Part shown: piece after piece, positions 13,329 through 54,555 of the stretch
Position numbering within the stretch: the stretch's first letter is position 1
Layout of the letters: each line of letters starts with the position of its first letter
Source: Tomocerus qinae
Taxonomy: Eukaryota > Arthropoda > Collembola > Entomobryomorpha > Tomoceridae
Direction: 5' to 3'
Length of the DNA stretch: 64,000 nt
Assembly (NCBI GenBank): GCA_020055645.1
Contig: JAECZT010000008.1
Span: forward strand, 682,001-746,000
Position numbers and translations under genes: made by a program
Notes under the pieces: model-generated
The model's database searches: none
The model's input: only the letters and a program-made list of their open reading frames with translations
What the model was told of the DNA's origin: nothing

Positions 13329-13360
13329 GAAATCCTGACGGGAACAAGGGGGAATCTCGA
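13329..13360 (+). repeat. Left terminal inverted repeat of the insert (copy 1)
   Basis: These 32 nt pair with the reverse complement of 14876-14907 at 28 positions, with mismatches at positions 2, 6, 9 and 15. The inner 17 nt, 'acaagggggaatctcga', are a perfect match. A copy starting at s has its TIRs at s to s+31 and s+1547 to s+1578. Confidence 0.92.
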
Positions 13361-13885
13361 ATAGTTAAAAATATAACATTAATTCCAATAGCAACTAAGT
13401 TTGCAAATCAAAATTTTGCACATCTAGGGACTTTCCATAAACAAATTTAAAAATTTTACCAACCAAATGTGAGCACCCAAACTTACTGATATTTTCCTAT
13501 CCCACACAATCGTGCATCTGCACTAGAAAATCATTGATTAGTTATAATATTACATCATTAAACTATACCTAAACCTTTGTGTGCGAATTACACAAAATAG
13601 TGGCAAAAAACTTACAGATAAACAATGAATAGTGTTTAGGTACAGAAAGTCTAGTCCATGTCTCTAATGTTTTGTTCTTGGACTCTATTTTAATAATAGT
13701 TGAAACATTTCTAAAAGCTGAAAATTCTTTTGGTGGCATTTAAAAAATATTTAAAAATTCTATTTAAAGTATTTTTGTTAAAAATTTCTTACTTATAAAT
13801 ATTCTAAGCACTTTGCGGCCCCTTCACTTAATGTCTACAGTTTAAAGCTATACTTAAGCGTAATGCGTAGTCTAATTCAAAATAG

Positions 13886-13895
13886 TAGTCGGATT
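13886..13895. repeat. Long-range internal inverted repeat, left arm (partner 14657-14666)
   Basis: 'tagtcggatt' here is the exact reverse complement of 'aatccgacta' at 14657-14666. The arms lie near one third and five sixths of the insert. A 10-bp match over 1.58 kb could be chance, though a third 'gtcggatt' at about 14534 makes it mildly notable. Confidence 0.45.
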
Positions 13896-13930
13896 GCTTC
13901 ATTAAGGGATTGCCTTAAAAGATTGTTTTG

Positions 13931-13946
13931 CCACTAATGATAGTGG
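13931..13946. repeat. Short hairpin-forming inverted repeat in the insert
   Basis: CCACTA, four bases, TAGTGG: six base pairs and a 4-nt loop. It occurs in all ten copies at the same internal position. No function is claimed. Confidence 0.5.
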
Positions 13947-14018
13947 TGATAAGTAATCAGCAAAATTGTCATAGAGGGTAAATGTGAATCACAAAATTCG
14001 TTTTTGTTAGGTAATTCC

Positions 14019-14031
14019 CTAAGGACCTTAG
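14019..14031. repeat. Short palindrome in the insert
   Basis: CTAAGG-a-CCTTAG, two 6-bp arms around one base. It could be a protein site or chance. Confidence 0.45.
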
Positions 14032-14119
14032 ACCACTAGTCCTACACCCATTAAAAAATTCATCAAACGTAAGTTGTTGCACTGAAAATTTCACATTTTT
14101 GTCTGTGTATTTTCTGACT

Positions 14120-14137
14120 GTTTGGAACATTCCAAAC
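14120..14137. promoter_or_regulatory. Palindrome resembling a heat-shock element
   Basis: GTTTGGAA-CA-TTCCAAAC has perfect 8-bp arms. It contains the nGAAnnTTCn pairing of the heat-shock factor site, and 6 bp further right 'attcaagaa' gives a second TTCnnGAA pair. The two dimers are not in continuous pentamer phase, so the match is imperfect. Binding is inference from sequence alone. Confidence 0.3.
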
Positions 14138-14169
14138 ATTCAAGAAATAATTGGAGTGTTCCATGGTCG

Positions 14170-14179
14170 CTGATTGGCT
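14170..14179 (-). promoter_or_regulatory. Consensus CCAAT box (minus strand)
   Basis: The minus strand reads AGCCAATCAG, a full match to the NF-Y type CCAAT consensus. It lies 32 bp right of the heat-shock-like palindrome. The pairing may mark an old promoter, but the motif is short and no transcript evidence exists here. Confidence 0.3.
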
Positions 14180-14352
14180 CAACCCCTCACAAATTTTGAT
14201 GTGAAAGGAGACCAACATTAGCCAGATAACCTCGGAAGCGATTCAGCTATCTGACTGGAAGTGATCAAGAATTCTTCCTAAAAGAATAGATCCACCAGTA
14301 CTTTATACCTACTAAAATACCGACTCTATTTATTAATACATAGTGCATAAGC

Positions 14353-14370
14353 ATAAATAGGGCTATTTAT
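14353..14370. repeat. AT-rich palindrome in the insert
   Basis: ATAAATAG-gg-CTATTTAT has perfect 8-bp arms and a 2-nt centre. It lies in a locally AT-rich stretch right of the CCAAT-box region. It resembles TATA-like sequence on both strands, but nothing decides a function. Confidence 0.45.
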
Positions 14371-14875
14371 TATTATATTAAAGTCAAGCAAGGATCCGGG
14401 ATATAACCTTAGTGTCATAGTTCAATGTAACAACTGAAAATAGATAGTTCGATTATTTTAAAAAATTACTGCATGGCAAGTGGTTTCAAATCCTTAGATG
14501 ATTTCATAAAAATATTACTAGGGTATATGGTTGTCGGATTAATCTGTCCGTAGCTGGGCAACATTTAAGGAAATTTTTTAACGATACAATGGTTTAGTTC
14601 AAAAGAGATTTTTAAATTGAACGCACCCCATAACATTTTTTCTGACTAGGTTTTTGAATCCGACTATAATACTTTCTGGATTGCATTCCAAAGTATTTTT
14701 CAACACTGCAATGCATAAGCCCTGTCTCAGTCCTGGTTACTTATGCAAATCTCTACAGTATAGTAATCTTATCCATTTCGCGAGCAAAAAATCGAAGAGT
14801 ACGTAATTCATGAACATTCCCTGAAACCTATAGTTTTGTTTATTCGTCAAATTGTAACTATATGGAAATACTAAA

Positions 14876-14907
14876 TCGAGATTCCCCCTTGTCCCCGTTA
14901 GCATTAC
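14876..14907 (-). repeat. Right terminal inverted repeat of the insert (copy 1)
   Basis: This is the partner of 13329-13360. It begins 'tcgagattcccccttgt' and ends 'cattac' directly before AATT. Confidence 0.92.
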
Positions 14908-15953
14908 AATTATTAAATCTTGAATTTCAACTCTTAAAAATTATTTTTTAAGCTTTTTGCCTCGTACAAGTTTAAAAAATAATTAAAACTGTTGAATGTT
15001 ATTTTTAAGCTTTTTGGCTCGTATAAGCATTAAATCCTGAATTTCAACTCTTGAAAATTATTTTTTAAACTTTTTGCCTCGTACAAGTTTAAAAAATAAT
15101 TGAAAGTGTTGAATGTTATTTTTAAGCTTTTTGTCTCGTATAAGTATTAAATCATGAATTTCAACTCTTGAAAATTATTTTTTAAGCTTTTTGCCTCGTA
15201 CAAGTTTAAAAAATAATTAAAACCTTTGAATGTTGTTTCTAAGCTTTTTGGCTCGTACAAGTATTAAATCATGAATTTCAACTCTTGAAAATTATTTTTT
15301 AAACTTTTTGCCTCGTACAAGTTTAAAAAATATTTAAAAGTGTTGAATATAATTTTTAAGCCTTTTGGCTCGTACAATTATTAAATCTTGAATTTCAACT
15401 CTTGAAAATTATTTTTTAAGCTTTTTGCCTCGTACAAGTTTAAAAAATAATTAAAACTGTTGAATGTTATTTTTAAGCTTTTTGGCTCGTATAAGTATTA
15501 AATCATGAATTTCAACTCTTGAAAATTATTTTTTAAGCTTTTTGGCTCGTACAACTATTAAATCATGAATTTCAACTCTTGAAAATTATTTTTTAAACTT
15601 TTTGCCTCGTACAAGTTTAAAAAATAATTAAAACTGTTGAATGTTATTTTTAAGCTTTTTGGCTCGTATAAGTATTAAATCATGAATTTCAACTCTTGAA
15701 AATTATTTTTTAAACTTTTTGGCTCGTACAAGTATTAAATCATGAATTTCAACTCTTGAAAATTATTTTTTAAACTTTTTGCCTCGTACAAGTTTAAAAA
15801 ATAATTAAAACTGTTGAATGTTATTTTTAAGCTTTTTGGCTCGTATAAGTATTAAATCATGAGTTTCAACTCTTGAAAATTATTTTTTAAACTTTTTGGC
15901 TCGTACAAGCATTAAATCATGAATTTCAACTCTTGAAAATTATTTTTTTAGCT

Positions 15954-18297
15954 TTTTGCCTCGTACAAGCTTACAAAATAATTAAAACTGTAAATGTTAT
16001 TTGTTGGCTTTTTGGCTCGTATAAGTATTAAATCATGAATTTCAACTCTTAAAAATTATTTTTTAAACTTTTCGCTTCGTACAAGTTTAAAAAATAACTA
16101 AAACTGTAAATGTTATTTGTAGGCTTTTTGGCTCGTACAAGTATTAAATCATGAATTTCAACTCTTGAAAATTATTTTTTAAACTTTTTGGCTCGTACAA
16201 GTATTAAATCATGAGTTTCAACTCTTGAAAATTATTTTTTCAACTTTTTGCCTCGTACAAGTTTAAAAAATAATTAAAACTGTTGAATGTTATTTTTAAG
16301 CTTTTTGGCTCGTATAAGTATTAAATCATGAATTTCAACTCTTGAAAATTATTTTTTAAGCTTTTTGGCCCGTACAAGTATTAAATCATGAATTTCAACT
16401 CTTAAAAATTATTTTTTAAATTTTTTGGCACGTACAAGTATTAAATCATGAATTTCAACTCTTGAAAATTATTTTTTAAACTTTTTGGCTCGTACAAGTA
16501 TTAAATCATGAATTTCAATTCTTGAAAATTATTTTTTAAACTTTTTGCCTCGTACAAGTTTAAAAAATAATTAAAACTGTTGAATGTTATTTTTTAAACT
16601 TTTTGGCTCGTATAAGTATTAAATCATGAATTTCAACTCTTGAAAATTATTTTTTAAGCTTTTTGGCTCGTACAAGTATTAAATCATCAATTTCAACTCT
16701 TGAAAATTATTTTTTAAACTTTTTGCCTCGTACAAGTTTAAAAAATAATTAAAACTGTTGAATGTTATTTTTAAGCTTTTTGGCTCGTATAAGTATTAAA
16801 TCATGAATTTCAACTCTTGAAAATTATTTTTTAAACTTTTTGGCTCGAACAAGTATTAAATCATGAATTTCAACTCTTGAAAATTATTTTTTAAACTTTT
16901 TGCCTCGTACAAGTTTAAAAAATAATTAAAACTGTTGAATACTATTTTTAAGCCTTTTGGCTCGTACAATTATTAAATCTTGAATTTCAACTCTTGAAAA
17001 TTAATTTTTAAGCTTTTTGCCTCGTACAAGTTCAAAAAATAATTAAAACTGTTGAATGTTATTTTTAAGCTTTTTGGCTCGTATAAGCATTAAATCCTGA
17101 ATTTCAACTCTTGAAAATTATTTTTTAAACTTTTTGGCTCGTACAAGTATTAAATCATGAATTTCAACTCTTGAAAATTATTTTTTAAACTTTTTGCCTC
17201 GTACAAGCTTACAAAATAATTAAAACTGTAAATGTTATTTGTTGGCTTTTTGGCTCGTATAAGTATTAAATCATGAATTTCAACTCTTAAAAATTATTTT
17301 TTAAACTTTTCGCTTCGTACAAGTTTAAAAAATAACTAAAACTGTAAATGTTATTTGTAGGCTTTTTGGCTCGTACAAGTATTAAATCATGAATTTCAAC
17401 TCTTGAAAATTATTTTTTAAACTTTTTGGCTCGTACAAGTATTAAATCATGAGTTTCAACTCTTGAAAATTATTTTTTCAACTTTTTGCCTCGTACAAGT
17501 TTAAAAAATAATTAAAACTGTTGAATGTTATTTTTAAGCTTTTTGGCTCGTATAAGTATTAAATCATGAATTTCAACTCTTGAAAATTATTTTTTAAGCT
17601 TTTTGGCCCGTACAAGTATTAAATCATGAATTTCAACTCTTAAAAATTATTTTTTAAATTTTTTGGCACGTACAAGTATTAAATCATGAATTTCAACTCT
17701 TGAAAATTATTTTTTAAACTTTTTGGCTCGTACAAGTATTAAATCATGAATTTCAATTCTTGAAAATTATTTTTTAAACTTTTTGCCTCGTACAAGTTTA
17801 AAAAATAATGAAAACTGTTGAATGTTATTTTTAAGCTTTTTGGCTCGTATAAGTATTAAATCATGAATTTCAACTCTTGAAAATTATTTTTTAAGCTTTT
17901 TGGCTCGTACAAGTATTAAATCATCAATTTCAACTCTTGAAAATTATTTTTTAAACTTTTTGCCTCGTACAAGTTTAAAAAATAATTAAAACTGTTGAAT
18001 GTTATTTTTAAGCTTTTTGGCTCGTATAAGTATTAAATCATGAATTTCAACTCTTGAAAATTATTTTTTAAACTTTTTGGCTCGAACAAGTATTAAATCA
18101 TGAATTTCAACTCTTGAAAATTATTTTTTAAACTTTTTGCCTCGTACAAGTTTAAAAAATAATTAAAACTGTTGAATACTATTTTTAAGCCTTTTGGCTC
18201 GTACAATTATTAAATCTTGAATTTCAACTCTTGAAAATTAATTTTTAAGCTTTTTGCCTCGTACAAGTTCAAAAAATAATTAAAACTGTTGAATGTT
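15954..18297 (+). repeat. Tandem duplication within block 1-2, period about 1,238 bp
   Basis: Markers pair up at 1,237-1,238 bp: 'aagcttacaaaa' (15968 and 17206), 'caactttttg' (16241 and 17479), and 'ctcgaacaag' (16844 and 18081). A one-base length change between 16580 and 16600 explains the shift. It is absent from the other insert intervals, so it arose after the common ancestor of the units. Confidence 0.82.
16578..16608. repeat. Chimeric B monomer with an A-type tail
   Basis: The B sequence 'gttgaatgtta' continues into the A tail (six T then 'aaac') instead of the B tail (five T then 'aagc'), yet is followed by the CTCGTATAAG monomer that normally follows B. Its duplicate 1,238 bp to the right has the normal tail, so this is a small conversion tract. 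Confidence 0.65.
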
Positions 18298-18795
18298 GTT
18301 TCTAAGCTTTTTCGCTCGTACAAGTATTAAATCATGAATTTCAACTCTTGAAAATTATTTTTTAAACTTTTTGGCTCGCACAAGTATTAAATCATGAATT
18401 TCAACTCTTGAAAATTATTTTTTAAACTTTTTGCCTCGTACAAGTTTAAAAAATAATTAAAACTGTTGAATATTATTTTTAAGCCTTTTGGCTCGTACAA
18501 TTATTAAATCTTGAATTTCAACTCTTGAAAATTATTTTTTAAACTTTTTGGCTCGCACAAGTATTAAATCATGAATTTCAACTCTTGAAAATTATTTTTT
18601 TAGCTTTTTGCCTCGTACAAGTTTACAAAATAATTAAAACTGTAAATGTTATTTGTTGGCTTTTTGGCTCGCACAAGTATTAATTCATGAATTTCAACTC
18701 TTGAAAATTATTTTTTAAACTTTTCGCCTTGTACAAGTTTAAAACATAACTTAAACTGTTGAATGTTATTTTTAAGCCTTTTGGCTCGTACAATT

Positions 18796-20374
18796 GAAAT
18801 CCTGACGGGAACAAGGGGGAATCTCGAATAGTTAAAAATATAACATTAATTCCAATAGCAACTAAGTTTGCAAATCAAAATTTTGCACATCTAGGGACTT
18901 TCCATAAACAAATTTAAAAATTTTACCAACCAAATGTGAGCACCCAAACTTACTGATATTTTCCTATCCCACACAATCGTGCATCTGCACTAGAAAATCA
19001 TTGATTAGTTATAATATTACATCATTAAACTATACCTAAACCTTTGTGTGCGAATTACACAAAATAGTGGCAAAAAACTTACAGATAAACAATGAATAGT
19101 GTTTAGGTACAGAAAGTCTAGTCCATGTCTCTAATGTTTTGTTCTTGGACTCTATTTTAATAATAGTTGAAACATTTCTAAAAGCTGAAAATTCTTTTGG
19201 TGGCATTTAAAAAATATTTAAAAATTCTATTTAAAGTATTTTTGTTAAAAATTTCTTACTTATAAATATTCTAAGCACTTTGCGGCCCCTTCACTTAATG
19301 TCTACAGTTTAAAGCTATACTTAAGCGTAATGCGTAGTCTAATTCAAAATAGTAGTCGGATTGCTTCATTAAGGGATTGCCTTAAAAGATTGTTTTGCCA
19401 CTAATGATAGTGGTGATAAGTAATCAGCAAAATTGTCATAGAGGGTAAATGTGAATCACAAAATTCGTTTTTGTTAGGTAATTCCCTAAGGACCTTAGAC
19501 CACTAGTCCTACACCCATTAAAAAATTCATCAAACGTAAGTTGTTGCACTGAAAATTTCACATTTTTGTCTGTGTATTTTCTGACTGTTTGGAACATTCC
19601 AAACATTCAAGAAATAATTGGAGTGTTCCATGGTCGCTGATTGGCTCAACCCCTCACAAATTTTGATGTGAAAGGAGACCAACATTAGCCAGATAACCTC
19701 GGAAGCGATTCAGCTATCTGACTGGAAGTGATCAAGAATTCTTCCTAAAAGAATAGATCCACCAGTACTTTATACCTACTAAAATACCGACTCTATTTAT
19801 TAATACATAGTGCATAAGCATAAATAGGGCTATTTATTATTATATTAAAGTCAAGCAAGGATCCGGGATATAACCTTAGTGTCATAGTTCAATGTAACAA
19901 CTGAAAATAGATAGTTCGATTATTTTAAAAAATTACTGCATGGCAAGTGGTTTCAAATCCTTAGATGATTTCATAAAAATATTACTAGGGTATATGGTTG
20001 TCGGATTAATCTGTCCGTAGCTGGGCAACATTTAAGGAAATTTTTTAACGATACAATGGTTTAGTTCAAAAGAGATTTTTAAATTGAACGCACCCCATAA
20101 CATTTTTTCTGACTAGGTTTTTGAATCCGACTATAATACTTTCTGGATTGCATTCCAAAGTATTTTTCAACACTGCAATGCATAAGCCCTGTCTCAGTCC
20201 TGGTTACTTATGCAAATCTCTACAGTATAGTAATCTTATCCATTTCGCGAGCAAAAAATCGAAGAGTACGTAATTCATGAACATTCCCTGAAACCTATAG
20301 TTTTGTTTATTCGTCAAATTGTAACTATATGGAAATACTAAATCGAGATTCCCCCTTGTCCCCGTTAGCATTAC
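18796..20374 (+). mobile_element. Insert copy 2
   Basis: 1,579 bp, same orientation and target position as copy 1, with no internal difference noticed. Its left satellite neighbour has private substitutions, while its right neighbour is of the common 'aattaaaactg' lineage. Confidence 0.85.
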
Positions 20375-22843
20375 AATTATTAAATCTTGAATTTCAACTC
20401 TTAAAAATTATTTTTTAAGCTTTTTGCCTCGTACAAGTTTAAAAAATAATTAAAACTGTTGAATGTTATTTTTAAGCTTTTTGGCTCGTATAAGCATTAA
20501 ATCCTGAATTTCAACTCTTGAAAATTATTTTTTAAACTTTTTGCCTCGTACAAGTTTAAAAAATAATTGAAAGTGTTGAATGTTATTTTTAAGCTTTTTG
20601 TCTCGTATAAGTATTAAATCATGAATTTCAACTCTTGAAAATTATTTTTTAAGCTTTTTGCCTCGTACAAGTTTAAAAAATAATTAAAACCTTTGAATGT
20701 TGTTTCTAAGCTTTTTGGCTCGTACAAGTATTAAATCATGAATTTCAACTCTTTAAAATTATTTTTTAAATTTTTTGGCACGTACAAGTATTAAATCATG
20801 AATTTCAACTCTTGAAAATTATTTTTTAAACTGTTTGGCTCGTACAAGTATTAAATCTTGAATTTCAATTCTTGAAAATTATTTTTTAAACTTTTTGCCT
20901 CGTACAAGTTTAAAAAATAATTAAAACTGTTGAATGTTATTTTTAAGCTTTTTGGCTCGTACAAGTATTAAATCATGAATTTAAACTCTTGAAAATTATT
21001 TTTTAAACTTTTTGCCTCGTACAAGTTTAAAAAATAATTAAAACTGTTGAATGTTATTTTTAAGCTTTTTGGCTCGTATAAGTATTAAATCATGAGTTTC
21101 AACTCTTGAAAATTATTTTTTAAACTTTTTGGCTCGTACAAGCATTAAATCATGAATTTCAACTCTTGAAAATTATTTTTTTTAGCTTTTTGCCTCGTAC
21201 AAGCTTACAAAATAATTAAAACTGTAAATGTTATTTGTTGGCTTTTTGGCTCGTATAAGTATTAAATCATGAATTTCAACTCTTAAAAATTATTTTTTAA
21301 ACTTTTCGCTTCGTACAAGTTTAAAAAATAACTAAAACTGTAAATGTTATTTGTAGGCTTTTTGGCTCGTACAAGTATTAAATCATGAATTTCAACTCTT
21401 GAAAATTATTTTTTAAACTTTTTGGCTCGTACAAGTATTAAATCATGAGTTTCAACTCTTGAAAATTATTTTTTCAACTTTTTGCCTCGTACAAGTTTAA
21501 AAAATAATTAAAACTGTTGAATGTTATTTTTAAGCTTTTTGGCTCGTATAAGTATTAAATCATGAATTTCAACTCTTGAAAATTATTTTTTAAACTTTTT
21601 GGCTCGTACAAGTATTAAATCATGAATTTCAACTCTTGAAAATTATTTTTTAAACTTTTTGCCTCGTACAAGTTTAAAAAATAATTAAAACTGTTGAATG
21701 TTATTTTTAAGCTTTTTGGCTCGAATAAGCATTAAATCCTGAATTTCAACTCTTGAAAATTATTTTTTAAACTTTTTGCCTCGTACAAGTTTAAAAAATA
21801 ATTGAAAGTGTTGAATGTTATTTTTAAGCTTTTTGTCTCGTATAAGTATTAAATCATGAATTTCAACTCTTGAAAATTATTTTTTAAGCTTTTTGCCTCG
21901 TACAAGTTTAAAAAATAATTAAAACTGTTGAATGTTATTTTTAAGCTTTTTGGCTCGTATAAGTATTAAATCATGAATTTCAACTCTTGAAAATTATTTT
22001 TTAAACTTTTTGGCTCGTACAAGTATTAAATCATGAATTTCAACTCTTGAAAATTATTTTTTAAACTTTTTGCCTCGTACAAGTTTAAAAAATAATTAAA
22101 ACTGTTGAATACTATTTTTAAGCCTTTTGGCTCGTACAATTATTAAATCTTGAATTTCAACTCTTGAAAATTAATTTTTAAGCTTTTTGCCTCGTACAAG
22201 TTCAAAAAATAATTAAAACTGTTGAATGTTATTTTTAAGCTTTTTGGCTCGTATAAGCATTAAATCCTGAATTTCAACTCTTGAAAATTATTTTTTAAGC
22301 TTTTTGCCTCGTACAAGTTTAAAAAATATTTAAAACTTTTGAATGTTGTTTCTAAGCTTTTTCGCTCGTACAAGTATTAAATCATGAATTTCAACTCTTG
22401 AAAATTATTTTTTAAACTTTTTGGCTCGTACAAGTATTAAATCATGAATTTCAACTCTTAAAAATTTTTTTTAAACTTTTTGCCTCGTACAAGTTTAAAA
22501 AATAATTAAAACTGTTGAATATTATTTTTAAGCCTTTTGGCTCGTACAATTATTAAATCTTGAATTTCAACTCTTGAAAATTATTTTTTAAACTTTTTGG
22601 CTCGCACAAGTATTAAATCATGAATTTCAACTCTTGAAAATTATTTTTTAACTTTTTGCCTCGTACAAGTTTACAAAATAATTAAAACTGTAAATGTTAT
22701 TTGTTGGCTTTTTGGCTCGCACAAGTATTAATTCATGAATTTCAACTCTTGAAAATTATTTTTTAAACTTTTCGCCTTGTACAAGTTTAAAAAATAACTA
22801 AAACTGTTGAATGTTATTTTTAAGCCTTTTGGCTCGTACAATT
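20375..22843. repeat. Satellite block between copies 2 and 3 (2,469 bp)
   Basis: First of three near-equal blocks (with 29421-31891 and 33471-35940) giving the higher-order unit of about 4,049 bp. The marker order is: 'aattgaaagtg', 'ggcacg', 'ctgtttgg', 'atttaaactc', 'catgagtttc', 'aagcttac', 'cttttcgcttcg', 'ctcgaataagc', 'gaatactatt', 'agttcaaaa', 'tttttcgctcg'. Differences from the others are CTCGTACAAG instead of CTCGCACAAG near 22426, a shortened T-run near 22466, and 'ttaactttttg' near 22648. Confidence 0.93.
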
Positions 22844-24422
22844 GAAATCCTGACGGGAACAAGGGGGAATCTCGAATAGTTAAAAATATAACATTAATTC
22901 CAATAGCAACTAAGTTTGCAAATCAAAATTTTGCACATCTAGGGACTTTCCATAAACAAATTTAAAAATTTTACCAACCAAATGTGAGCACCCAAACTTA
23001 CTGATATTTTCCTATCCCACACAATCGTGCATCTGCACTAGAAAATCATTGATTAGTTATAATATTACATCATTAAACTATACCTAAACCTTTGTGTGCG
23101 AATTACACAAAATAGTGGCAAAAAACTTACAGATAAACAATGAATAGTGTTTAGGTACAGAAAGTCTAGTCCATGTCTCTAATGTTTTGTTCTTGGACTC
23201 TATTTTAATAATAGTTGAAACATTTCTAAAAGCTGAAAATTCTTTTGGTGGCATTTAAAAAATATTTAAAAATTCTATTTAAAGTATTTTTGTTAAAAAT
23301 TTCTTACTTATAAATATTCTAAGCACTTTGCGGCCCCTTCACTTAATGTCTACAGTTTAAAGCTATACTTAAGCGTAATGCGTAGTCTAATTCAAAATAG
23401 TAGTCGGATTGCTTCATTAAGGGATTGCCTTAAAAGATTGTTTTGCCACTAATGATAGTGGTGATAAGTAATCAGCAAAATTGTCATAGAGGGTAAATGT
23501 GAATCACAAAATTCGTTTTTGTTAGGTAATTCCCTAAGGACCTTAGACCACTAGTCCTACACCCATTAAAAAATTCATCAAACGTAAGTTGTTGCACTGA
23601 AAATTTCACATTTTTGTCTGTGTATTTTCTGACTGTTTGGAACATTCCAAACATTCAAGAAATAATTGGAGTGTTCCATGGTCGCTGATTGGCTCAACCC
23701 CTCACAAATTTTGATGTGAAAGGAGACCAACATTAGCCAGATAACCTCGGAAGCGATTCAGCTATCTGACTGGAAGTGATCAAGAATTCTTCCTAAAAGA
23801 ATAGATCCACCAGTACTTTATACCTACTAAAATACCGACTCTATTTATTAATACATAGTGCATAAGCATAAATAGGGCTATTTATTATTATATTAAAGTC
23901 AAGCAAGGATCCGGGATATAACCTTAGTGTCATAGTTCAATGTAACAACTGAAAATAGATAGTTCGATTATTTTAAAAAATTACTGCATGGCAAGTGGTT
24001 TCAAATCCTTAGATGATTTCATAAAAATATTACTAGGGTATATGGTTGTCGGATTAATCTGTCCGTAGCTGGGCAACATTTAAGGAAATTTTTTAACGAT
24101 ACAATGGTTTAGTTCAAAAGAGATTTTTAAATTGAACGCACCCCATAACATTTTTTCTGACTAGGTTTTTGAATCCGACTATAATACTTTCTGGATTGCA
24201 TTCCAAAGTATTTTTCAACACTGCAATGCATAAGCCCTGTCTCAGTCCTGGTTACTTATGCAAATCTCTACAGTATAGTAATCTTATCCATTTCGCGAGC
24301 AAAAAATCGAAGAGTACGTAATTCATGAACATTCCCTGAAACCTATAGTTTTGTTTATTCGTCAAATTGTAACTATATGGAAATACTAAATCGAGATTCC
24401 CCCTTGTCCCCGTTAGCATTAC
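22844..24422 (+). mobile_element. Insert copy 3
   Basis: 1,579 bp, unchanged relative to copy 1 as far as seen. The block to its right switches to a different arrangement at about 24658, so this copy ends a stretch of the 4,049-bp unit type. Confidence 0.85.
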
Positions 24423-27400: not shown

Positions 27401-27841
27401 TATTTTTTAAACTTTTTGGCTCGCACAAGTATTAAATCATGAATTTCAACTCTTGAAAATTATTTTTTAAACTTTTTGCCTCGTACAAGTTTAAAAAATA
27501 ATTAAAACTCTTGAAAATTATTTTTTAAGCCTTTTGGCTCATACAATTAATAAATCTTGAATTTCAACTCTTGAAAATTATTTTTTAAACTTTTTGGCTC
27601 GTACAAGTATTAAATCATGAATTTCAACTCTTGAAAATTATTTTTTTAGCTTTTTGCCTCGTACAAGTTTACAAAATAATTAAAACTGTAAATGTTATTT
27701 GTTGGCTTTTTGGCTCGCACAAGTATTAATTCATGAATTTCAACTCTTGAAAATTATTTTTTAAACTTTTCGCCTTGTACAAGTTTAAAAAATAACTAAA
27801 ACTGTTGAATGTTATTTTTAAGCCTTTTGGCTCGTACAATT
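24423..27841. repeat. Satellite block between copies 3 and 4 (3,419 bp)
   Basis: The first 235 bp are the usual right flank. A junction lies near 24658, where the 'gtctcgtataag' monomer runs directly into the 'catgagtttc' monomer. From there to the next insert the block is colinear with 41.7-44.8 kb, sharing the rare 'actcctgtatg' (25326 and 42310) and 'ttgtcacg'. It has one A monomer more than that partner block. Confidence 0.93.
27502..27545. repeat. Chimeric B/A monomer with a mutated core following
   Basis: The B start 'aattaaaact' passes straight into the A tail 'cttgaaaattattttttaag' where other units have the B tail. The next core reads CTCATACAATTAAT, losing the CpG. The partner block near 44490 is normal, so this is a private conversion or exchange scar. 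Confidence 0.75.
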
Positions 27842-41179: not shown

Positions 41180-41230
41180 TCATGAATTTCAACTCTTAAA
41201 AATTATTTTTAAGCTTTTTGGCTCGTATAA
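41180..41230. repeat. Chimeric A monomer with a B-type tail
   Basis: An A body ending 'ctcttaaaaattattttt' passes directly to 'aagc' with five T and is followed by CTCGTATAAG, the monomer that normally follows B. The start is A-like and the end B-like, as expected from crossover within the homologous tails. Confidence 0.7.
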
Positions 41231-41399
41231 GTATTAAATCATGAATTTCAACTCTTGAAAATTATTTTTTAAGCTTTTTGGCTCGTACAAGTATTAAATC
41301 ATGAATTTCAACTCTTAAAAATTATTTTTTAAATTTTTTGGCACGTACAAATATTAAATCATGAATTTCAACTCTTGAAAATTATTTTTTAAACTGTTT

Positions 41400-41456
41400 G
41401 GCTCGTACAAGTTTAAAAAATAATTAAAACTGTTGAATGTTATTTTTAAGCTTTTT
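41400..41456. repeat. Mis-paired monomer: GGC-type core followed by a B body
   Basis: The 'ctgtttgg' junction, elsewhere followed by a 'caagtattaaatcttg' A monomer, here leads into a B body. It lies a few hundred bases left of the point where colinearity with 24.66-27.84 kb begins. Confidence 0.72.
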
Positions 41457-44400: not shown

Positions 44401-44826
44401 TTTGGCTCGCACAAGTATTAAATCATGAATTTCAACTCTTGAAAATTATTTTTTAAACTTTTTGCCTCGTACAAGTTTAAAAAATAATTAAAACTGTTGA
44501 ATATTATTTTTAAGCCTTTTGGCTCGTACAATTATTAAATCTTGAATTTCAACTCTTGAAAATTATTTTTTAAACTTTTTGGCTCGCACAAGTATTAAAT
44601 CATGAATTTCAACTCTTGAAAATTATTTTTTTAGCTTTTTGCCTCGTACAAGTTTACAAAATAATTAAAACTGTAAATGTTATTTGTTGGCTTTTTGGCT
44701 CGCACAAGTATTAATTCATGAATTTCAACTCTTGAAAATTATTTTTTAAACTTTTCGCCTTGTACAAGTTTAAAAAATAACTAAAACTGTTGAATGTTAT
44801 TTTTAAGCCTTTTGGCTCGTACAATT

Positions 44827-46405
44827 GAAATCCTGACGGGAACAAGGGGGAATCTCGAATAGTTAAAAATATAACATTAATTCCAATAGCAACTAAGTTT
44901 GCAAATCAAAATTTTGCACATCTAGGGACTTTCCATAAACAAATTTAAAAATTTTACCAACCAAATGTGAGCACCCAAACTTACTGATATTTTCCTATCC
45001 CACACAATCGTGCATCTGCACTAGAAAATCATTGATTAGTTATAATATTACATCATTAAACTATACCTAAACCTTTGTGTGCGAATTACACAAAATAGTG
45101 GCAAAAAACTTACAGATAAACAATGAATAGTGTTTAGGTACAGAAAGTCTAGTCCATGTCTCTAATGTTTTGTTCTTGGACTCTATTTTAATAATAGTTG
45201 AAACATTTCTAAAAGCTGAAAATTCTTTTGGTGGCATTTAAAAAATATTTAAAAATTCTATTTAAAGTATTTTTGTTAAAAATTTCTTACTTATAAATAT
45301 TCTAAGCACTTTGCGGCCCCTTCACTTAATGTCTACAGTTTAAAGCTATACTTAAGCGTAATGCGTAGTCTAATTCAAAATAGTAGTCGGATTGCTTCAT
45401 TAAGGGATTGCCTTAAAAGATTGTTTTGCCACTAATGATAGTGGTGATAAGTAATCAGCAAAATTGTCATAGAGGGTAAATGTGAATCACAAAATTCGTT
45501 TTTGTTAGGTAATTCCCTAAGGACCTTAGACCACTAGTCCTACACCCATTAAAAAATTCATCAAACGTAAGTTGTTGCACTGAAAATTTCACATTTTTGT
45601 CTGTGTATTTTCTGACTGTTTGGAACATTCCAAACATTCAAGAAATAATTGGAGTGTTCCATGGTCGCTGATTGGCTCAACCCCTCACAAATTTTGATGT
45701 GAAAGGAGACCAACATTAGCCAGATAACCTCGGAAGCGATTCAGCTATCTGACTGGAAGTGATCAAGAATTCTTCCTAAAAGAATAGATCCACCAGTACT
45801 TTATACCTACTAAAATACCGACTCTATTTATTAATACATAGTGCATAAGCATAAATAGGGCTATTTATTATTATATTAAAGTCAAGCAAGGATCCGGGAT
45901 ATAACCTTAGTGTCATAGTTCAATGTAACAACTGAAAATAGATAGTTCGATTATTTTAAAAAATTACTGCATGGCAAGTGGTTTCAAATCCTTAGATGAT
46001 TTCATAAAAATATTACTAGGGTATATGGTTGTCGGATTAATCTGTCCGTAGCTGGGCAACATTTAAGGAAATTTTTTAACGATACAATGGTTTAGTTCAA
46101 AAGAGATTTTTAAATTGAACGCACCCCATAACATTTTTTCTGACTAGGTTTTTGAATCCGACTATAATACTTTCTGGATTGCATTCCAAAGTATTTTTCA
46201 ACACTGCAATGCATAAGCCCTGTCTCAGTCCTGGTTACTTATGCAAATCTCTACAGTATAGTAATCTTATCCATTTCGCGAGCAAAAAATCGAAGAGTAC
46301 GTAATTCATGAACATTCCCTGAAACCTATAGTTTTGTTTATTCGTCAAATTGTAACTATATGGAAATACTAAATCGAGATTCCCCCTTGTCCCCGTTAGC
46401 ATTAC
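44827..46405 (+). mobile_element. Insert copy 7
   Basis: 1,579 bp, no difference noticed. Its left flank is shared with copy 4. Its right flank is the shortened type that jumps directly to 'aattgaaagtg', also found after copies 8, 9 and 10. It sits at the switch between the two lineages of insert-bearing unit. Confidence 0.85.
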
Positions 46406-47347
46406 AATTATTAAATCTTGAATTTCAACTCTTAAAAATTATTTTTTAAGCTTTTTGCCTCGTACAAGTTTAAAAAATAATTGAAAGTGTTGAATGTTAT
46501 TTTTAAGCTTTTTGTCTCGTATAAGTATTAAATCATGAATTTCAACTCTTGAAAATTATTTTTTAAGCTTTTTGCCTCGTACAAGTTTAAAAAATAATTA
46601 AAACCTTTGAATGTTGTTTCTAAGCTTTTTGGCTCGTACAAGTATTAAATCATGAATTTCAACTCTTGAAAATTATTTTTTAAACTTTTTGCCTCGTACA
46701 AGTTTAAAAAATATTTAAAAGTGTTGAATATAATTTTTAAGCCTTTTGGCTCGTACAATTATTAAATCTTGAATTTCAACTCTTGAAAATTATTTTTTAA
46801 GCTTTTTGCCTCGTACAAGTTTAAAAAATAATTAAAACTGTTGAATGTTATTTTTAAGCTTTTTGGCTCGTATAAGCATTAAATCCTGAATTTCAACTCT
46901 TGAAAATTATTTTTTAAGCTTTTTGGCTCGTACAAGTATTAAGTCATGAATATCAATTCTTGAAAATTATTTTTTAAGCTTTTTGCCTCGTACAAGTTTA
47001 AAAAATAACTAAAACTGTTGAATATTATTTTTAAGCCTTTTGGCTCGTACAATTATTAAATCTTGAATTTCAACTCTTGAAAATTATTTTTTAAACTTTT
47101 TGGCTCGCACAAGTATTAAATCATGAATTTCAACTCTTGAAAATTATTTTTTTAGCTTTTTGCCTCGTACAAGTTTACAAAATAATTAAAACTGTAAATG
47201 TTATTTGTTGGCTTTTTGGCTCGCACAAGTATTAATTCATGAATTTCAACTCTTGAAAATTATTTTTTAAACTTTTCGCCTTGTACAAGTTTAAAAAATA
47301 ACTAAAACTGTTGAATGTTATTTTTAAGCCTTTTGGCTCGTACAATT
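46406..47347. repeat. Satellite block between copies 7 and 8 (942 bp)
   Basis: Shortest interval. With one insert it makes a 2,521-bp higher-order unit. Compared with the block at 48927-49868 I noticed one substitution (C at 47009, T at 49530). The right flank lacks the 117-bp B+A pair found after copies 1 to 6. Confidence 0.95.
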
Positions 47348-48926
47348 GAAATCCTGACGGGAACAAGGGGGAATCTCGAATAGTTAAAAATATAACATTA
47401 ATTCCAATAGCAACTAAGTTTGCAAATCAAAATTTTGCACATCTAGGGACTTTCCATAAACAAATTTAAAAATTTTACCAACCAAATGTGAGCACCCAAA
47501 CTTACTGATATTTTCCTATCCCACACAATCGTGCATCTGCACTAGAAAATCATTGATTAGTTATAATATTACATCATTAAACTATACCTAAACCTTTGTG
47601 TGCGAATTACACAAAATAGTGGCAAAAAACTTACAGATAAACAATGAATAGTGTTTAGGTACAGAAAGTCTAGTCCATGTCTCTAATGTTTTGTTCTTGG
47701 ACTCTATTTTAATAATAGTTGAAACATTTCTAAAAGCTGAAAATTCTTTTGGTGGCATTTAAAAAATATTTAAAAATTCTATTTAAAGTATTTTTGTTAA
47801 AAATTTCTTACTTATAAATATTCTAAGCACTTTGCGGCCCCTTCACTTAATGTCTACAGTTTAAAGCTATACTTAAGCGTAATGCGTAGTCTAATTCAAA
47901 ATAGTAGTCGGATTGCTTCATTAAGGGATTGCCTTAAAAGATTGTTTTGCCACTAATGATAGTGGTGATAAGTAATCAGCAAAATTGTCATAGAGGGTAA
48001 ATGTGAATCACAAAATTCGTTTTTGTTAGGTAATTCCCTAAGGACCTTAGACCACTAGTCCTACACCCATTAAAAAATTCATCAAACGTAAGTTGTTGCA
48101 CTGAAAATTTCACATTTTTGTCTGTGTATTTTCTGACTGTTTGGAACATTCCAAACATTCAAGAAATAATTGGAGTGTTCCATGGTCGCTGATTGGCTCA
48201 ACCCCTCACAAATTTTGATGTGAAAGGAGACCAACATTAGCCAGATAACCTCGGAAGCGATTCAGCTATCTGACTGGAAGTGATCAAGAATTCTTCCTAA
48301 AAGAATAGATCCACCAGTACTTTATACCTACTAAAATACCGACTCTATTTATTAATACATAGTGCATAAGCATAAATAGGGCTATTTATTATTATATTAA
48401 AGTCAAGCAAGGATCCGGGATATAACCTTAGTGTCATAGTTCAATGTAACAACTGAAAATAGATAGTTCGATTATTTTAAAAAATTACTGCATGGCAAGT
48501 GGTTTCAAATCCTTAGATGATTTCATAAAAATATTACTAGGGTATATGGTTGTCGGATTAATCTGTCCGTAGCTGGGCAACATTTAAGGAAATTTTTTAA
48601 CGATACAATGGTTTAGTTCAAAAGAGATTTTTAAATTGAACGCACCCCATAACATTTTTTCTGACTAGGTTTTTGAATCCGACTATAATACTTTCTGGAT
48701 TGCATTCCAAAGTATTTTTCAACACTGCAATGCATAAGCCCTGTCTCAGTCCTGGTTACTTATGCAAATCTCTACAGTATAGTAATCTTATCCATTTCGC
48801 GAGCAAAAAATCGAAGAGTACGTAATTCATGAACATTCCCTGAAACCTATAGTTTTGTTTATTCGTCAAATTGTAACTATATGGAAATACTAAATCGAGA
48901 TTCCCCCTTGTCCCCGTTAGCATTAC
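47348..48926 (+). mobile_element. Insert copy 8
   Basis: 1,579 bp, no difference noticed. It is the middle member of three inserts spaced exactly 2,521 bp apart (44827, 47348, 49869). Confidence 0.85.
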
Positions 48927-49868
48927 AATTATTAAATCTTGAATTTCAACTCTTAAAAATTATTTTTTAAGCTTTTTGCCTCGTACAAGTTTAAAAAATA
49001 ATTGAAAGTGTTGAATGTTATTTTTAAGCTTTTTGTCTCGTATAAGTATTAAATCATGAATTTCAACTCTTGAAAATTATTTTTTAAGCTTTTTGCCTCG
49101 TACAAGTTTAAAAAATAATTAAAACCTTTGAATGTTGTTTCTAAGCTTTTTGGCTCGTACAAGTATTAAATCATGAATTTCAACTCTTGAAAATTATTTT
49201 TTAAACTTTTTGCCTCGTACAAGTTTAAAAAATATTTAAAAGTGTTGAATATAATTTTTAAGCCTTTTGGCTCGTACAATTATTAAATCTTGAATTTCAA
49301 CTCTTGAAAATTATTTTTTAAGCTTTTTGCCTCGTACAAGTTTAAAAAATAATTAAAACTGTTGAATGTTATTTTTAAGCTTTTTGGCTCGTATAAGCAT
49401 TAAATCCTGAATTTCAACTCTTGAAAATTATTTTTTAAGCTTTTTGGCTCGTACAAGTATTAAGTCATGAATATCAATTCTTGAAAATTATTTTTTAAGC
49501 TTTTTGCCTCGTACAAGTTTAAAAAATAATTAAAACTGTTGAATATTATTTTTAAGCCTTTTGGCTCGTACAATTATTAAATCTTGAATTTCAACTCTTG
49601 AAAATTATTTTTTAAACTTTTTGGCTCGCACAAGTATTAAATCATGAATTTCAACTCTTGAAAATTATTTTTTTAGCTTTTTGCCTCGTACAAGTTTACA
49701 AAATAATTAAAACTGTAAATGTTATTTGTTGGCTTTTTGGCTCGCACAAGTATTAATTCATGAATTTCAACTCTTGAAAATTATTTTTTAAACTTTTCGC
49801 CTTGTACAAGTTTAAAAAATAACTAAAACTGTTGAATGTTATTTTTAAGCCTTTTGGCTCGTACAATT
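48927..49868. repeat. Satellite block between copies 8 and 9 (942 bp)
   Basis: Second copy of the 942-bp satellite segment, the same as 46406-47347 apart from one base noticed. Its last 907 bp also correspond to 12422-13328. Confidence 0.95.
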
Positions 49869-51447
49869 GAAATCCTGACGGGAACAAGGGGGAATCTCGA
49901 ATAGTTAAAAATATAACATTAATTCCAATAGCAACTAAGTTTGCAAATCAAAATTTTGCACATCTAGGGACTTTCCATAAACAAATTTAAAAATTTTACC
50001 AACCAAATGTGAGCACCCAAACTTACTGATATTTTCCTATCCCACACAATCGTGCATCTGCACTAGAAAATCATTGATTAGTTATAATATTACATCATTA
50101 AACTATACCTAAACCTTTGTGTGCGAATTACACAAAATAGTGGCAAAAAACTTACAGATAAACAATGAATAGTGTTTAGGTACAGAAAGTCTAGTCCATG
50201 TCTCTAATGTTTTGTTCTTGGACTCTATTTTAATAATAGTTGAAACATTTCTAAAAGCTGAAAATTCTTTTGGTGGCATTTAAAAAATATTTAAAAATTC
50301 TATTTAAAGTATTTTTGTTAAAAATTTCTTACTTATAAATATTCTAAGCACTTTGCGGCCCCTTCACTTAATGTCTACAGTTTAAAGCTATACTTAAGCG
50401 TAATGCGTAGTCTAATTCAAAATAGTAGTCGGATTGCTTCATTAAGGGATTGCCTTAAAAGATTGTTTTGCCACTAATGATAGTGGTGATAAGTAATCAG
50501 CAAAATTGTCATAGAGGGTAAATGTGAATCACAAAATTCGTTTTTGTTAGGTAATTCCCTAAGGACCTTAGACCACTAGTCCTACACCCATTAAAAAATT
50601 CATCAAACGTAAGTTGTTGCACTGAAAATTTCACATTTTTGTCTGTGTATTTTCTGACTGTTTGGAACATTCCAAACATTCAAGAAATAATTGGAGTGTT
50701 CCATGGTCGCTGATTGGCTCAACCCCTCACAAATTTTGATGTGAAAGGAGACCAACATTAGCCAGATAACCTCGGAAGCGATTCAGCTATCTGACTGGAA
50801 GTGATCAAGAATTCTTCCTAAAAGAATAGATCCACCAGTACTTTATACCTACTAAAATACCGACTCTATTTATTAATACATAGTGCATAAGCATAAATAG
50901 GGCTATTTATTATTATATTAAAGTCAAGCAAGGATCCGGGATATAACCTTAGTGTCATAGTTCAATGTAACAACTGAAAATAGATAGTTCGATTATTTTA
51001 AAAAATTACTGCATGGCAAGTGGTTTCAAATCCTTAGATGATTTCATAAAAATATTACTAGGGTATATGGTTGTCGGATTAATCTGTCCGTAGCTGGGCA
51101 ACATTTAAGGAAATTTTTTAACGATACAATGGTTTAGTTCAAAAGAGATTTTTAAATTGAACGCACCCCATAACATTTTTTCTGACTAGGTTTTTGAATC
51201 CGACTATAATACTTTCTGGATTGCATTCCAAAGTATTTTTCAACACTGCAATGCATAAGCCCTGTCTCAGTCCTGGTTACTTATGCAAATCTCTACAGTA
51301 TAGTAATCTTATCCATTTCGCGAGCAAAAAATCGAAGAGTACGTAATTCATGAACATTCCCTGAAACCTATAGTTTTGTTTATTCGTCAAATTGTAACTA
51401 TATGGAAATACTAAATCGAGATTCCCCCTTGTCCCCGTTAGCATTAC
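49869..51447 (+). mobile_element. Insert copy 9
   Basis: 1,579 bp, no difference noticed. Spacing to the next insert grows to 3,108 bp because the following satellite block contains extra monomers of flank type. Confidence 0.85.
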
Positions 51448-52976
51448 AATTATTAAATCTTGAATTTCAACTCTTAAAAATTATTTTTTAAGCTTTTTGC
51501 CTCGTACAAGTTTAAAAAATAATTGAAAGTGTTGAATGTTATTTTTAAGCTTTTTGTCTCGTATAAGTATTAAATCATGAATTTCAACTCTTGAAAATTA
51601 TTTTTTAAGCTTTTTGCCTCGTACAAGTTTAAAAAATAATTAAAACCTTTGAATGTTGTTTCTAAGCTTTTTGGCTCGTACAAGTATTAAATCATGAATT
51701 TCAACTCTTGAAAATTATTTTTTAAACTTTTTGCCTCGTACAAGTTTAAAAAATATTTAAAAGTGTTGAATATAATTTTTAAGCCTTTTGGCTCGTACAA
51801 TTATTAAATCTTGAATTTCAACTCTTGAAAATTATTTTTTAAGCTTTTTGCCTCGTACAAGTTTAAAAAATAATTAAAACTGTTAAATAGTATTTTTCAG
51901 CTTTTTGGCTCGTATAAGCATTAAATCCTGAATTTCAACTCTTGAAAATTATTTTTTAAGCTTTTTGGATCGTACAAGTATTAAGTCATGAATATCAATT
52001 CTTGAAAATTATTTTTTAAGCTTTTTGCCTCGTACAAGTTTAAAAAATAATTAAAACTGTAAATGTTATTTTTAAGCTTTTTGGCTCGTATAAGTATTAA
52101 ATCAGGAATTTCAACTCTTGAAAATTATTTTTTAAACTTTTTGGCTCGTAAAAGTATTAAATCATGAATTTCAACTCTTGAAAATTATTTTTTAAACTTT
52201 TTGCCTCGTACAAGTTTAAAAAATAATTAAAAGCGTTGAATGTTATTTTTAAGCCTTTTGGCTCGTACAATTATTAAATCTTGAATTTCAACTCTTGAAA
52301 ATTATTTTTTAAGCTTTTTGCCTCGTACAAGTTTAAAAAATAATTAAAACTGTTGAATGTTATTTTTAAGCTTTTTGGCTCGTATAAGCATTAAATCCTG
52401 AATTTCAACTCTTGAAAATTATTTTTTAAGCTTTTTGCCTCGTACAAGTTTAAAAAATATTTAAAACTTTTGAATGTTGTTTCTAAGCTTTTTCGCTCGT
52501 ACAAGTATTAAATCATGAATTTCAACTCTTGAAAATTATTTTTTAAACTTTTTGGCTCGCACAAGTATTAAATCATGAATTTCAACTCTTGAAAATTATT
52601 TTTTAAACTTTTTGCCTCGTACAAGTTTAAAAAATAATTAAAACTGTTGAATATTATTTTTAAGCCTTTTGGCTCGTACAATTATTAAATCTTGAATTTC
52701 AACTCTTGAAAATTATTTTTTAAACTTTTTGGCTCGCACAAGTATTAAATCATGAATTTCAACTCTTGAAAATTATTTTTTTAGCTTTTTGCCTCGTACA
52801 AGTTTACAAAATAATTAAAACTGTAAATGTTATTTGTTGGCTTTTTGGCTCGCACAAGTATTAATTCATGAATTTCAACTCTTGAAAATTATTTTTTAAA
52901 CTTTTCGCCTTGTACAAGTTTAAAAAATAACTAAAACTGTTGAATGTTATTTTTAAGCCTTTTGGCTCGTACAATT
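51448..52976. repeat. Satellite block between copies 9 and 10 (1,529 bp), mosaic
   Basis: It starts as the 942-bp type. From about 51,880 it carries 'gttaaatagtatttttcagc' and 'ttggatcgtacaag', otherwise seen only near 1,997-2,100 in the left flank. It continues with 'caggaatttc' and 'cgtaaaagt' monomers also seen right of 55.1 kb. It ends with the 'tttttcgctcg' and 'cgcacaag' approach of the 4,049-bp unit. At least three arrangements are joined here. Confidence 0.9.
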
Positions 52977-54555
52977 GAAATCCTGACGGGAACAAGGGGG
53001 AATCTCGAATAGTTAAAAATATAACATTAATTCCAATAGCAACTAAGTTTGCAAATCAAAATTTTGCACATCTAGGGACTTTCCATAAACAAATTTAAAA
53101 ATTTTACCAACCAAATGTGAGCACCCAAACTTACTGATATTTTCCTATCCCACACAATCGTGCATCTGCACTAGAAAATCATTGATTAGTTATAATATTA
53201 CATCATTAAACTATACCTAAACCTTTGTGTGCGAATTACACAAAATAGTGGCAAAAAACTTACAGATAAACAATGAATAGTGTTTAGGTACAGAAAGTCT
53301 AGTCCATGTCTCTAATGTTTTGTTCTTGGACTCTATTTTAATAATAGTTGAAACATTTCTAAAAGCTGAAAATTCTTTTGGTGGCATTTAAAAAATATTT
53401 AAAAATTCTATTTAAAGTATTTTTGTTAAAAATTTCTTACTTATAAATATTCTAAGCACTTTGCGGCCCCTTCACTTAATGTCTACAGTTTAAAGCTATA
53501 CTTAAGCGTAATGCGTAGTCTAATTCAAAATAGTAGTCGGATTGCTTCATTAAGGGATTGCCTTAAAAGATTGTTTTGCCACTAATGATAGTGGTGATAA
53601 GTAATCAGCAAAATTGTCATAGAGGGTAAATGTGAATCACAAAATTCGTTTTTGTTAGGTAATTCCCTAAGGACCTTAGACCACTAGTCCTACACCCATT
53701 AAAAAATTCATCAAACGTAAGTTGTTGCACTGAAAATTTCACATTTTTGTCTGTGTATTTTCTGACTGTTTGGAACATTCCAAACATTCAAGAAATAATT
53801 GGAGTGTTCCATGGTCGCTGATTGGCTCAACCCCTCACAAATTTTGATGTGAAAGGAGACCAACATTAGCCAGATAACCTCGGAAGCGATTCAGCTATCT
53901 GACTGGAAGTGATCAAGAATTCTTCCTAAAAGAATAGATCCACCAGTACTTTATACCTACTAAAATACCGACTCTATTTATTAATACATAGTGCATAAGC
54001 ATAAATAGGGCTATTTATTATTATATTAAAGTCAAGCAAGGATCCGGGATATAACCTTAGTGTCATAGTTCAATGTAACAACTGAAAATAGATAGTTCGA
54101 TTATTTTAAAAAATTACTGCATGGCAAGTGGTTTCAAATCCTTAGATGATTTCATAAAAATATTACTAGGGTATATGGTTGTCGGATTAATCTGTCCGTA
54201 GCTGGGCAACATTTAAGGAAATTTTTTAACGATACAATGGTTTAGTTCAAAAGAGATTTTTAAATTGAACGCACCCCATAACATTTTTTCTGACTAGGTT
54301 TTTGAATCCGACTATAATACTTTCTGGATTGCATTCCAAAGTATTTTTCAACACTGCAATGCATAAGCCCTGTCTCAGTCCTGGTTACTTATGCAAATCT
54401 CTACAGTATAGTAATCTTATCCATTTCGCGAGCAAAAAATCGAAGAGTACGTAATTCATGAACATTCCCTGAAACCTATAGTTTTGTTTATTCGTCAAAT
54501 TGTAACTATATGGAAATACTAAATCGAGATTCCCCCTTGTCCCCGTTAGCATTAC
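52977..54555 (+). mobile_element. Insert copy 10, the last one
   Basis: 1,579 bp, no difference noticed. The shortened right flank follows, and no insert is found in the remaining 9.4 kb. Confidence 0.85.

Follow-up and report, generated by a model that had tools for sequence, protein, structure and literature searches.

It is still an open question how satellite DNA spreads out of large arrays and reaches new sites on the chromosomes. To our knowledge, circles and transposons are often invoked for this spread, without junctions resolved at the base level. The DNA analyzed here, a window of 64,000 bp, consists of a ∼59-bp satellite with ten inserts of 1,579 bp. It raises the question of how the ten inserts came to share one position in a satellite monomer, and whether such a block of satellite and insert has remained in its array.

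Organization of the array and its inserts

The satellite array fills the window (1..64000, + strand), with ∼60-bp and ∼57-bp monomers running head to tail between the inserts. A total of 806 monomers were scored in the window, representing 190 distinct sequences. Identities within the two length classes are 94% and 91%, compared to 76% between classes (300 random pairs each).

The inserts are located at 13329..14907 (insert 1), 18796..20374 (insert 2), 22844..24422 (insert 3), 27842..29420 (insert 4), 31892..33470 (insert 5), 35941..37519 (insert 6), 44827..46405 (insert 7), 47348..48926 (insert 8), 49869..51447 (insert 9) and 52977..54555 (insert 10), all on the + strand. A 100-base test segment was counted ten times on this strand of the window, and a search of the window for minus-strand copies found none. 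Inserts 2–4 and 6–10 are identical in sequence to insert 1, while insert 5 has a single G-to-A change at insert position 1466, which is the only variation in 15,790 bp. Each of the ten is bordered on both sides by AATT (13325-13328 and 14908-14911 for insert 1). The uninterrupted monomer, GGCTCGTACAATTATTAAATC, has a single AATT, and 43 such host-type monomers are present in the window; the flanking AATT thus reads as a 4-bp target-site duplication (TSD). The left terminal inverted repeat (TIR) of insert 1 (13329..13360, + strand; GAAATCCTGACGGGAACAAGGGGGAATCTCGA) is identical over its 32 bases to the left end of a transposase-coding relative, L037. The right TIR (14876..14907, − strand) matches the left at 28 of 32 positions, compared to a maximum of 17 in 2,000 pairs drawn at random from the bases of the insert. 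An earlier note on this DNA had described ten nearly identical TIR inserts of one length, orientation and target position, making up about 25% of the window; the alignment and the common breakpoint bear this out, with a measured share of 24.7%.

Shared flanks and higher-order units

Nine inserts are identical in the 100 bp before them and the 60 bp after them, and insert 2 has two upstream differences. The earlier note had pointed to a shared flank variant, the 12-mer ctcttaaaaatt. This 12-mer is found 38 times in the window and is by itself not diagnostic of an insert flank, but a longer shared flank does exist: a 54-bp right-flank signature (14908..14961, + strand), which contains the 12-mer, follows all ten inserts exactly. 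It occurs exactly 10 times in the window, always directly after an insert, and exactly 13 times in the genome; outside the window it is exact only where it follows the two inserts on another contig, C4, and where it forms the left edge of the island on C4 described below. A 76-bp left-flank signature (13253..13328, + strand), consisting of a monomer of type p and the host half-monomer ending in AATT, precedes nine of the ten inserts exactly and insert 2 with 2 mismatches. All 23 places within 3 mismatches of it were listed; besides those in the window, the only exact ones in the genome precede the two inserts on C4 and mark the right edge of the island there. The left monomer context, d-r-h-k-p, is exact in seven inserts and modified in the other three (copies 2, 3 and 4); on the right, ag, aB or nothing is followed by f in every case.

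The inserts and their neighboring monomers form higher-order units of about 2.5, 3.1, 4.05, 5.0, 5.5 and 8.9 kb. A 4,048-bp unit (18796..22843, + strand), comprising an insert and 2,469 bp of satellite, recurs at 27842 (4,050 bp) and 31892 (4,049 bp), and a 4,048-bp unit is also found on C4. The three units of 4,048–4,050 bp differ by 5–7 mismatches, and the two 2,521-bp units that begin at inserts 7 and 8 by one, whereas random monomers of one length class are only 91–94% alike. In satellite higher-order repeats elsewhere, multi-monomer units are more alike than their monomers, and here they are far more alike. Unlike such repeats in general, however, the unit in this window is of variable length and takes in an entire non-satellite transposon.

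Dispersed relatives and family placement

Relatives with similar ends are dispersed in the same 334-Mb genome, and the insert ends are common to relatives in non-satellite flanks. These relatives lie outside satellite on contigs C1–C5 and C7, in both orientations and with their own 4-bp duplications, and the insert is therefore mobile in origin. A perfect 4-bp TSD is present in 17 of 18 tabulated elements (ATAT in 10, AATT in 2, ATTT in 2, and AAAT, ATGT and ACAT in 1 each), and 15 of the 17 fit AWWT strictly. The exception, L016, has ACAT on one side and ATAT on the other. The two sides of the target site also differ in L018, which is outside the tabulated set. Among the 40 candidates scored, of 488, 12 copies of at least 99% identity were found, all embedded in satellite (10 in the window and 2 on C4), and the nearest dispersed relatives are ∼88–89% identical over gapped BLAST alignments. 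The check proposed earlier, a search for copies outside the array, therefore turned up relatives with their own TSDs, with the closest copies confined to satellite. The best dispersed relative is 93% identical when gaps are ignored; no dispersed copy is closer, and the donor of the insert is thus not seen.

In one relative, 2,312 bp long, TIRs of this type enclose an intact ORF for a 644-aa DUF7869 protein. The ORF matches DUF7869 with an E-value of 9.9e-6, just under the cut-off, and another relative, L046, is above the cut-off. Residues D361, D442 and E491 are invariant in ten aligned sequences. In the predicted fold (mean pLDDT 72.1), strands and helices follow an RNase H-like order, and a DDE core is predicted for the protein. 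Comparison of the model with the PDB gave weak matches to TnsB (E 0.011) and the Metnase transposase domain (probability 0.97, E 0.03), with no match at E 0.001 or less and unrelated proteins among the first ranks. A sequence search for a solved relative of the transposase yielded none at E up to 1, and a text search of the literature for DUF7869 found no paper.

The insert is a putative non-autonomous Sola2-like DNA transposon, an unproven placement drawn from TSDs and the published description. The Sola2 superfamily is described in PMC3627910 as having 4-bp A/T-rich TSDs of the AWWT kind (ATAT, AAAT, ATTT) and inverted ends, 12–21 bp long in its examples. The insert group resembles it in the AWWT-type TSDs, the terminal inverted repeats and the putative DDE-like protein of a coding relative. 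It differs in the ACAT and ATGT duplications of two of the 17 elements and in its longer ends (∼32 bp).

Origin of the ten copies

One insertion followed by amplification predicts what is observed in all ten copies, namely the same breakpoint, orientation and length and shared satellite neighbors. Such a single founder with later amplification, proposed in the earlier note and upheld by neighbors shared over several monomers, is almost certain. A Sola2-like transposon would have inserted once into a ∼59-bp monomer, duplicating AATT, and unequal exchange or a similar amplification of the array would then have copied it with neighboring monomers into ten near-identical copies. An assembly-wide search for the pre-insertion allele, with the 60-bp flanks exactly joined, gave 0 exact places and 289 within 3 mismatches; the exact monomer pair that preceded the insertion is thus not seen. 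The element itself is probably a passenger of no use to the array. Its ends are intact and could be acted on by related transposases encoded in the genome.

Two other origins would account for parts of this pattern. Ten separate insertions into one hot-spot monomer would agree with the use of A/T-rich 4-mers by Sola2-like elements and with the 43 uninterrupted occurrences of this monomer type. However, the copies have flanks of several monomers in common, including the rare signatures, lie in one orientation and differ by 1 SNP in 15,790 bp, while none of the 12 near-identical copies found has another flank context or the opposite orientation; this origin has virtually no probability. The confinement to satellite of all 12 copies of at least 99% identity, among those scored, is what would be expected if the block were a non-mobile spacer belonging to the satellite itself. 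Such a spacer is extremely improbable in view of the TIRs, the AATT duplication and the dispersed relatives, which have their own TSDs and both orientations in non-satellite DNA.

A satellite island on another contig

What is new here is an island of the insert/satellite repeat on C4 with both edges on insertion breakpoints. The island (C4:8,569,857 to 8,579,132; 9,276 bp) has the order S1-INS-S2-INS-S3 between non-satellite flanks. The satellite segments S1, S2 and S3 each span precisely from one breakpoint to the next, so that both edges fall on breakpoints from which the insert is missing. The island thus comprises three full stretches of satellite from between inserts and has AATT at either end, and the flank signatures stand at both edges without an insert. 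These signatures are otherwise found only beside inserts, which strongly indicates that the edges once adjoined an insert. No TIR remnant was found at either edge. The unique right flank carries AATT, giving AATT before S1 and AATTAATT after S3; AATT has a frequency of 0.011 in the C4 flanks. The target, CTAAAT|AATTATATTC, needs no loss. A search of the whole assembly for an unoccupied paralogue of the site, in which the flanks would be directly joined, matched nothing but the two flanks on C4 themselves. The ends of the island were likely set by insert ends. The island, which lay beyond the reach of the earlier note, shows that the insert/satellite block did not only amplify locally.

The array or the island could also have been misassembled, as the 1.16-Mb contig of the window, C8, is rich in tandem repeats. 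An artefact is nevertheless very unlikely: the inserts are spaced unevenly, at 2,521 to 8,886 bp, individual units carry their own variants, the window and the island are free of N bases, and a random misjoin is not expected on insertion breakpoints at both ends. Excision, which is possible if somewhat short of probable, would start from a circle of three units that lost one insert to transposase, or a chromosomal stretch that lost two; the remaining linear S1-INS-S2-INS-S3, with AATT at each terminus, would then have joined C4. The product is the inter-transposon segment also released by reversed-ends transposition in maize, where PMC4270019 describes cleavage at the facing ends of two elements. 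Each edge of the island falls on a breakpoint to the exact base, the two TSD copies are kept and the target requires no loss. However, the maize model ligates the released segment into a circle, and reintegration is absent from that account as available. Double-AATT scars in satellite monomers number 0 within 1 mismatch, so that excision from the array is without direct support, and the AATT of the unique flank (∼1.1% of positions) would be a coincidence unless transposase made the break. Composite transposition of INS-S1-INS-S2-INS-S3-INS into an AATT target, with later loss of the two outer inserts, would instead account for the AATT that precedes S1 and the AATTAATT that follows S3 by target duplication plus excision, at a site where AATT is infrequent. 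This route, or a circle recombining with an older C4 insert, is unlikely, since two later losses would have to have struck the outer edges only, sparing both inner inserts and leaving no TIR remnant. Whether by excision from array or circle, or by reversed-ends or composite transposition, no specific route exceeds tentative standing. For the preferred account of breakage at insert ends, the break would have freed a stretch of satellite from between inserts, itself still holding two of them, and this stretch would have joined C4 at an AATT. We infer that amplification proceeded by unequal exchange and that the island arose via such breakage; the explanation taken as a whole is highly probable.

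Relation to other systems and implications

The C4 segment is bounded on both sides by element breakpoints, a feature of the reversed-ends (alternative) transposition shown for Ac/fAc in maize alleles (PMC4270019, PMC3744419), where Ac/Ds has 8-bp TSDs. The two systems have in common the facing ends of neighboring elements, an inter-transposon segment ending at breakpoints, and tandem duplication as a possible outcome; unlike the maize events, those proposed here are inferred from one assembly. For the TCAST transposon-like elements of Tribolium castaneum, a DNA-transposon route for satellite into euchromatin has been proposed (PMC3411249). A similar route is considered here, but TCAST satellite lies within a TIR element with the TSD ACT, whereas here satellite lies between whole transposon copies. 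Within each insert, a search for the satellite motif scored just one loose match, allowing up to 5 mismatches out of 17, as expected by chance. In molluscs, PMC5139131 describes non-random junctions for only one examined satellite and some arrays that belonged to Helitrons. Abrupt satellite/non-satellite junctions and links between satellite and transposable elements are found here as well, with the difference that both junctions lie on the insertion site of a TIR element. Co-amplified transposon/satellite units in this arrangement were not reported in the literature covered by our text search.

The C4 island suggests an escape of satellite DNA from the array via a break or transposition at transposon ends. 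With both junctions of one satellite island on transposon insertion breakpoints, a transposon-end route becomes testable. It is conceivable, if rather doubtful, that the array becomes a mobile substrate once a transposon is fixed in its higher-order repeat, in which case transposase supplied in trans may cut facing ends of neighboring copies, reshape the array and release satellite segments that seed euchromatic loci, as on C4.

Organization of the satellite array and its inserts

The window (G000:C8:682001-746000, within a contig of 1,162,030 bp) is a single tandem array in the T. qinae assembly G000, which comprises 334,443,149 bp in 115 contigs. Satellite monomers of two lengths, about 60 and 57 bp, follow one another head to tail, with 190 distinct sequences among the 806 monomers scored. 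A 37-bp monomer pattern gives 13,988 genome matches (≤3 mismatches); the places listed for it include the start of contig C4, a location towards the end of C3, and numerous small contigs. Thirteen of 15 stretches sampled along C8 are satellite, in mixed orientations, and two are not. The contig ends sampled at G000:C4:1-2000 (L065) and in the last 2 kb of C3 (L069) both lie in the array satellite, and neither sample contained TTAGGTTAGG or its complement. At least five small-subunit rRNA matches, each about 1,818 bp long, are widely separated on C1 and C2 (five of 1,584 candidates scored), suggesting that rRNA gene copies are dispersed in this assembly.

The coordinates at which an earlier note had placed ten 1,579-bp inserts in one orientation are borne out. 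Each insert is exactly 1,579 bp long with AATT on either side, the ten differ at one base in 15,790, and their terminal inverted repeats (TIRs) match at 28 of 32 positions. In the window, 43 host-type monomers are uninterrupted, each carrying AATT once. The flanking 12-mer that the note regarded as shared by all copies does lie in a 54-bp right-flank signature, found after 10/10 inserts and nowhere else in the window, but is not diagnostic alone, since it occurs there 38 times.

When clustered monomers are written as letters, the run d-r-h-k-p precedes seven of the ten inserts; before copies 2, 3 and 4, at least one position of the run is variant. On the right, ag, aB or nothing is followed by f in all ten. 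An insert-free d-r-h-k run was seen once, with a different monomer type next. Insert starts are spaced at 5467, 4048, 4998, 4050, 4049, 8886, 2521, 2521 and 3108 bp; three 4.05-kb units are 5–7 mismatches and 1–3 gap bases apart, and two 2,521-bp units differ by one base. Near-identical long units with altered lengths are the pattern left by unequal exchange in an array, and we infer that process here. A single founder insertion followed by array amplification, as the note had proposed, is well supported and ordinary in kind.

Dispersed relatives of the insert

A genome search with the insert returned at least 51 matches (40 of 488 candidates scored): ten in the window, two near-identical on C4, and diverged ones on C1–C4 and smaller contigs. 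A TIR pattern search gave 66 matches at ≤2 mismatches. Eighteen elements with both ends present were tabulated: nine A elements, whose bodies are related to that of the insert, and nine B elements, which have ends of the same type around a different body; partial loci were left out, as was L018, where the sides of the target-site duplication (TSD) are unlike (ATAT and ATTT). Identical 4-bp duplications flank 17 of the 18. The exception, L016 (C4:14219500-14223700), has a single right end and two A-type left ends separated by about 1 kb, suggesting a nested or tandem insertion.

Four A copies (L011, L012, L013 and L015) are 99.7–100% identical to one another, as are eight B copies, shorter than B copy L037, at 99.6–100%; this similarity suggests that the family moved recently. 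The direct donor of the insert is not among the nine A copies, because the insert, gaps ignored, is 91.6–93.3% identical to eight of them and 89% to L019, and its left end is B-type. Two loci on different contigs, L047 (C2:34900-38500) and L048 (C12:205500-209500), share the same B-type left end and left flank, and may represent a duplicated segment or a second haplotype.

Within the insert, a stretch of about 300 bp (positions 791–1094, e.g. window 14119-14422) shows 76–79% similarity to a portion of a 334-bp LTR bordering retrotransposon L025, which has RT, RNase H and integrase domains; a similar direct repeat is present in L024. The insert family appears to carry an old LTR fragment.

A transposase-like protein

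L037 (G000:C1:86081500-86084900) is a full B element of 2,312 bp that has the TSD ATTT and contains an intact 644-aa ORF. Its protein has a Pfam DUF7869 match that falls narrowly short of the cut-off, whereas that of a shorter relative clears it, and the genome holds at least 93 matches (69 of 495 candidates scored). D361, D442 and E491 are invariant in 10/10 aligned sequences, comprising L037, L046 and eight matched places picked for stop-free frames. In an AlphaFold2 model (mean pLDDT 72.1), we would assign these residues to the ends of expected strands and to the last helix, in RNase H-like order. Foldseek matches of the model are weak, none at E≤0.001, and mixed: TnsB ranks first (E 0.011), the Metnase transposase domain third and fifth, nuclease NurA second and phosphatase SHIP2 fourth. 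We call the element Sola2-like on account of its duplications, as those of Sola2 elements are AWWT, e.g. ATAT, AAAT and ATTT, according to PMC3627910.

A satellite island on contig C4

A second stretch of insert-bearing satellite lies interstitially in the 33.8-Mb contig C4 (C4:8,569,857-8,579,132; L066, L009 and L067), 9,276 bp without N; the flanking samples, 1.4 kb to the left and 3.8 kb to the right, are non-satellite. Satellite segments S1 (2,469 bp), S2 (2,469 bp) and S3 (1,180 bp) are separated by two inserts, which, when aligned with each other, disagree in five columns (four are gaps). Between S1 and window segment 2 there are six mismatches and two gap bases, and S3 is S2 minus 1,289 bases, with one mismatch. 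Each segment starts with AATTATTAAATC and ends with GCTCGTACAATT, and so runs from just after one insert to just before another.

Exact matches to the 54-bp right-flank signature number 13 genome-wide: after the ten window inserts, after the two C4 inserts, and at the left edge of the island, without an insert. A 76-bp left-flank signature has 12 exact occurrences (nine in the window, three on C4) and is present with two mismatches before window insert 2; one of the exact occurrences, at the right edge of the island, lacks its insert. Each edge of the island thus falls on an insertion breakpoint from which the insert is missing. The left junction reads CTAAAT/AATT-ATTAAATC and the right one CGTAC-AATT/AATT-ATATTC (slash, junction). 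Since AATT accounts for 1.1% of 4-mers across the island flanks, finding it in the unique flank lends mild support to a target chosen by transposase. In contrast, satellite at the start of C4 grades into diverged monomers at the one junction viewed there.

Cutting at the ends of an insert, in the array or in a circle of units, may have freed such a segment. Cutting at facing ends of two insert copies, as described for maize Ac elements in PMC4270019, may free the same kind of segment. Alternatively, inserts and satellite may have moved as a composite that afterwards lost its outer inserts. Frequent excision is disfavored, as neither a double-AATT scar nor an exact restored (insert-free) monomer was found. 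No unoccupied version of the C4 site turned up in an assembly-wide search. Text searches, chiefly at the abstract level and with most subscription journals outside their coverage, returned no transposon/satellite arrangement of this kind. The island turns the case of founder insertion plus amplification into a more interesting variant.
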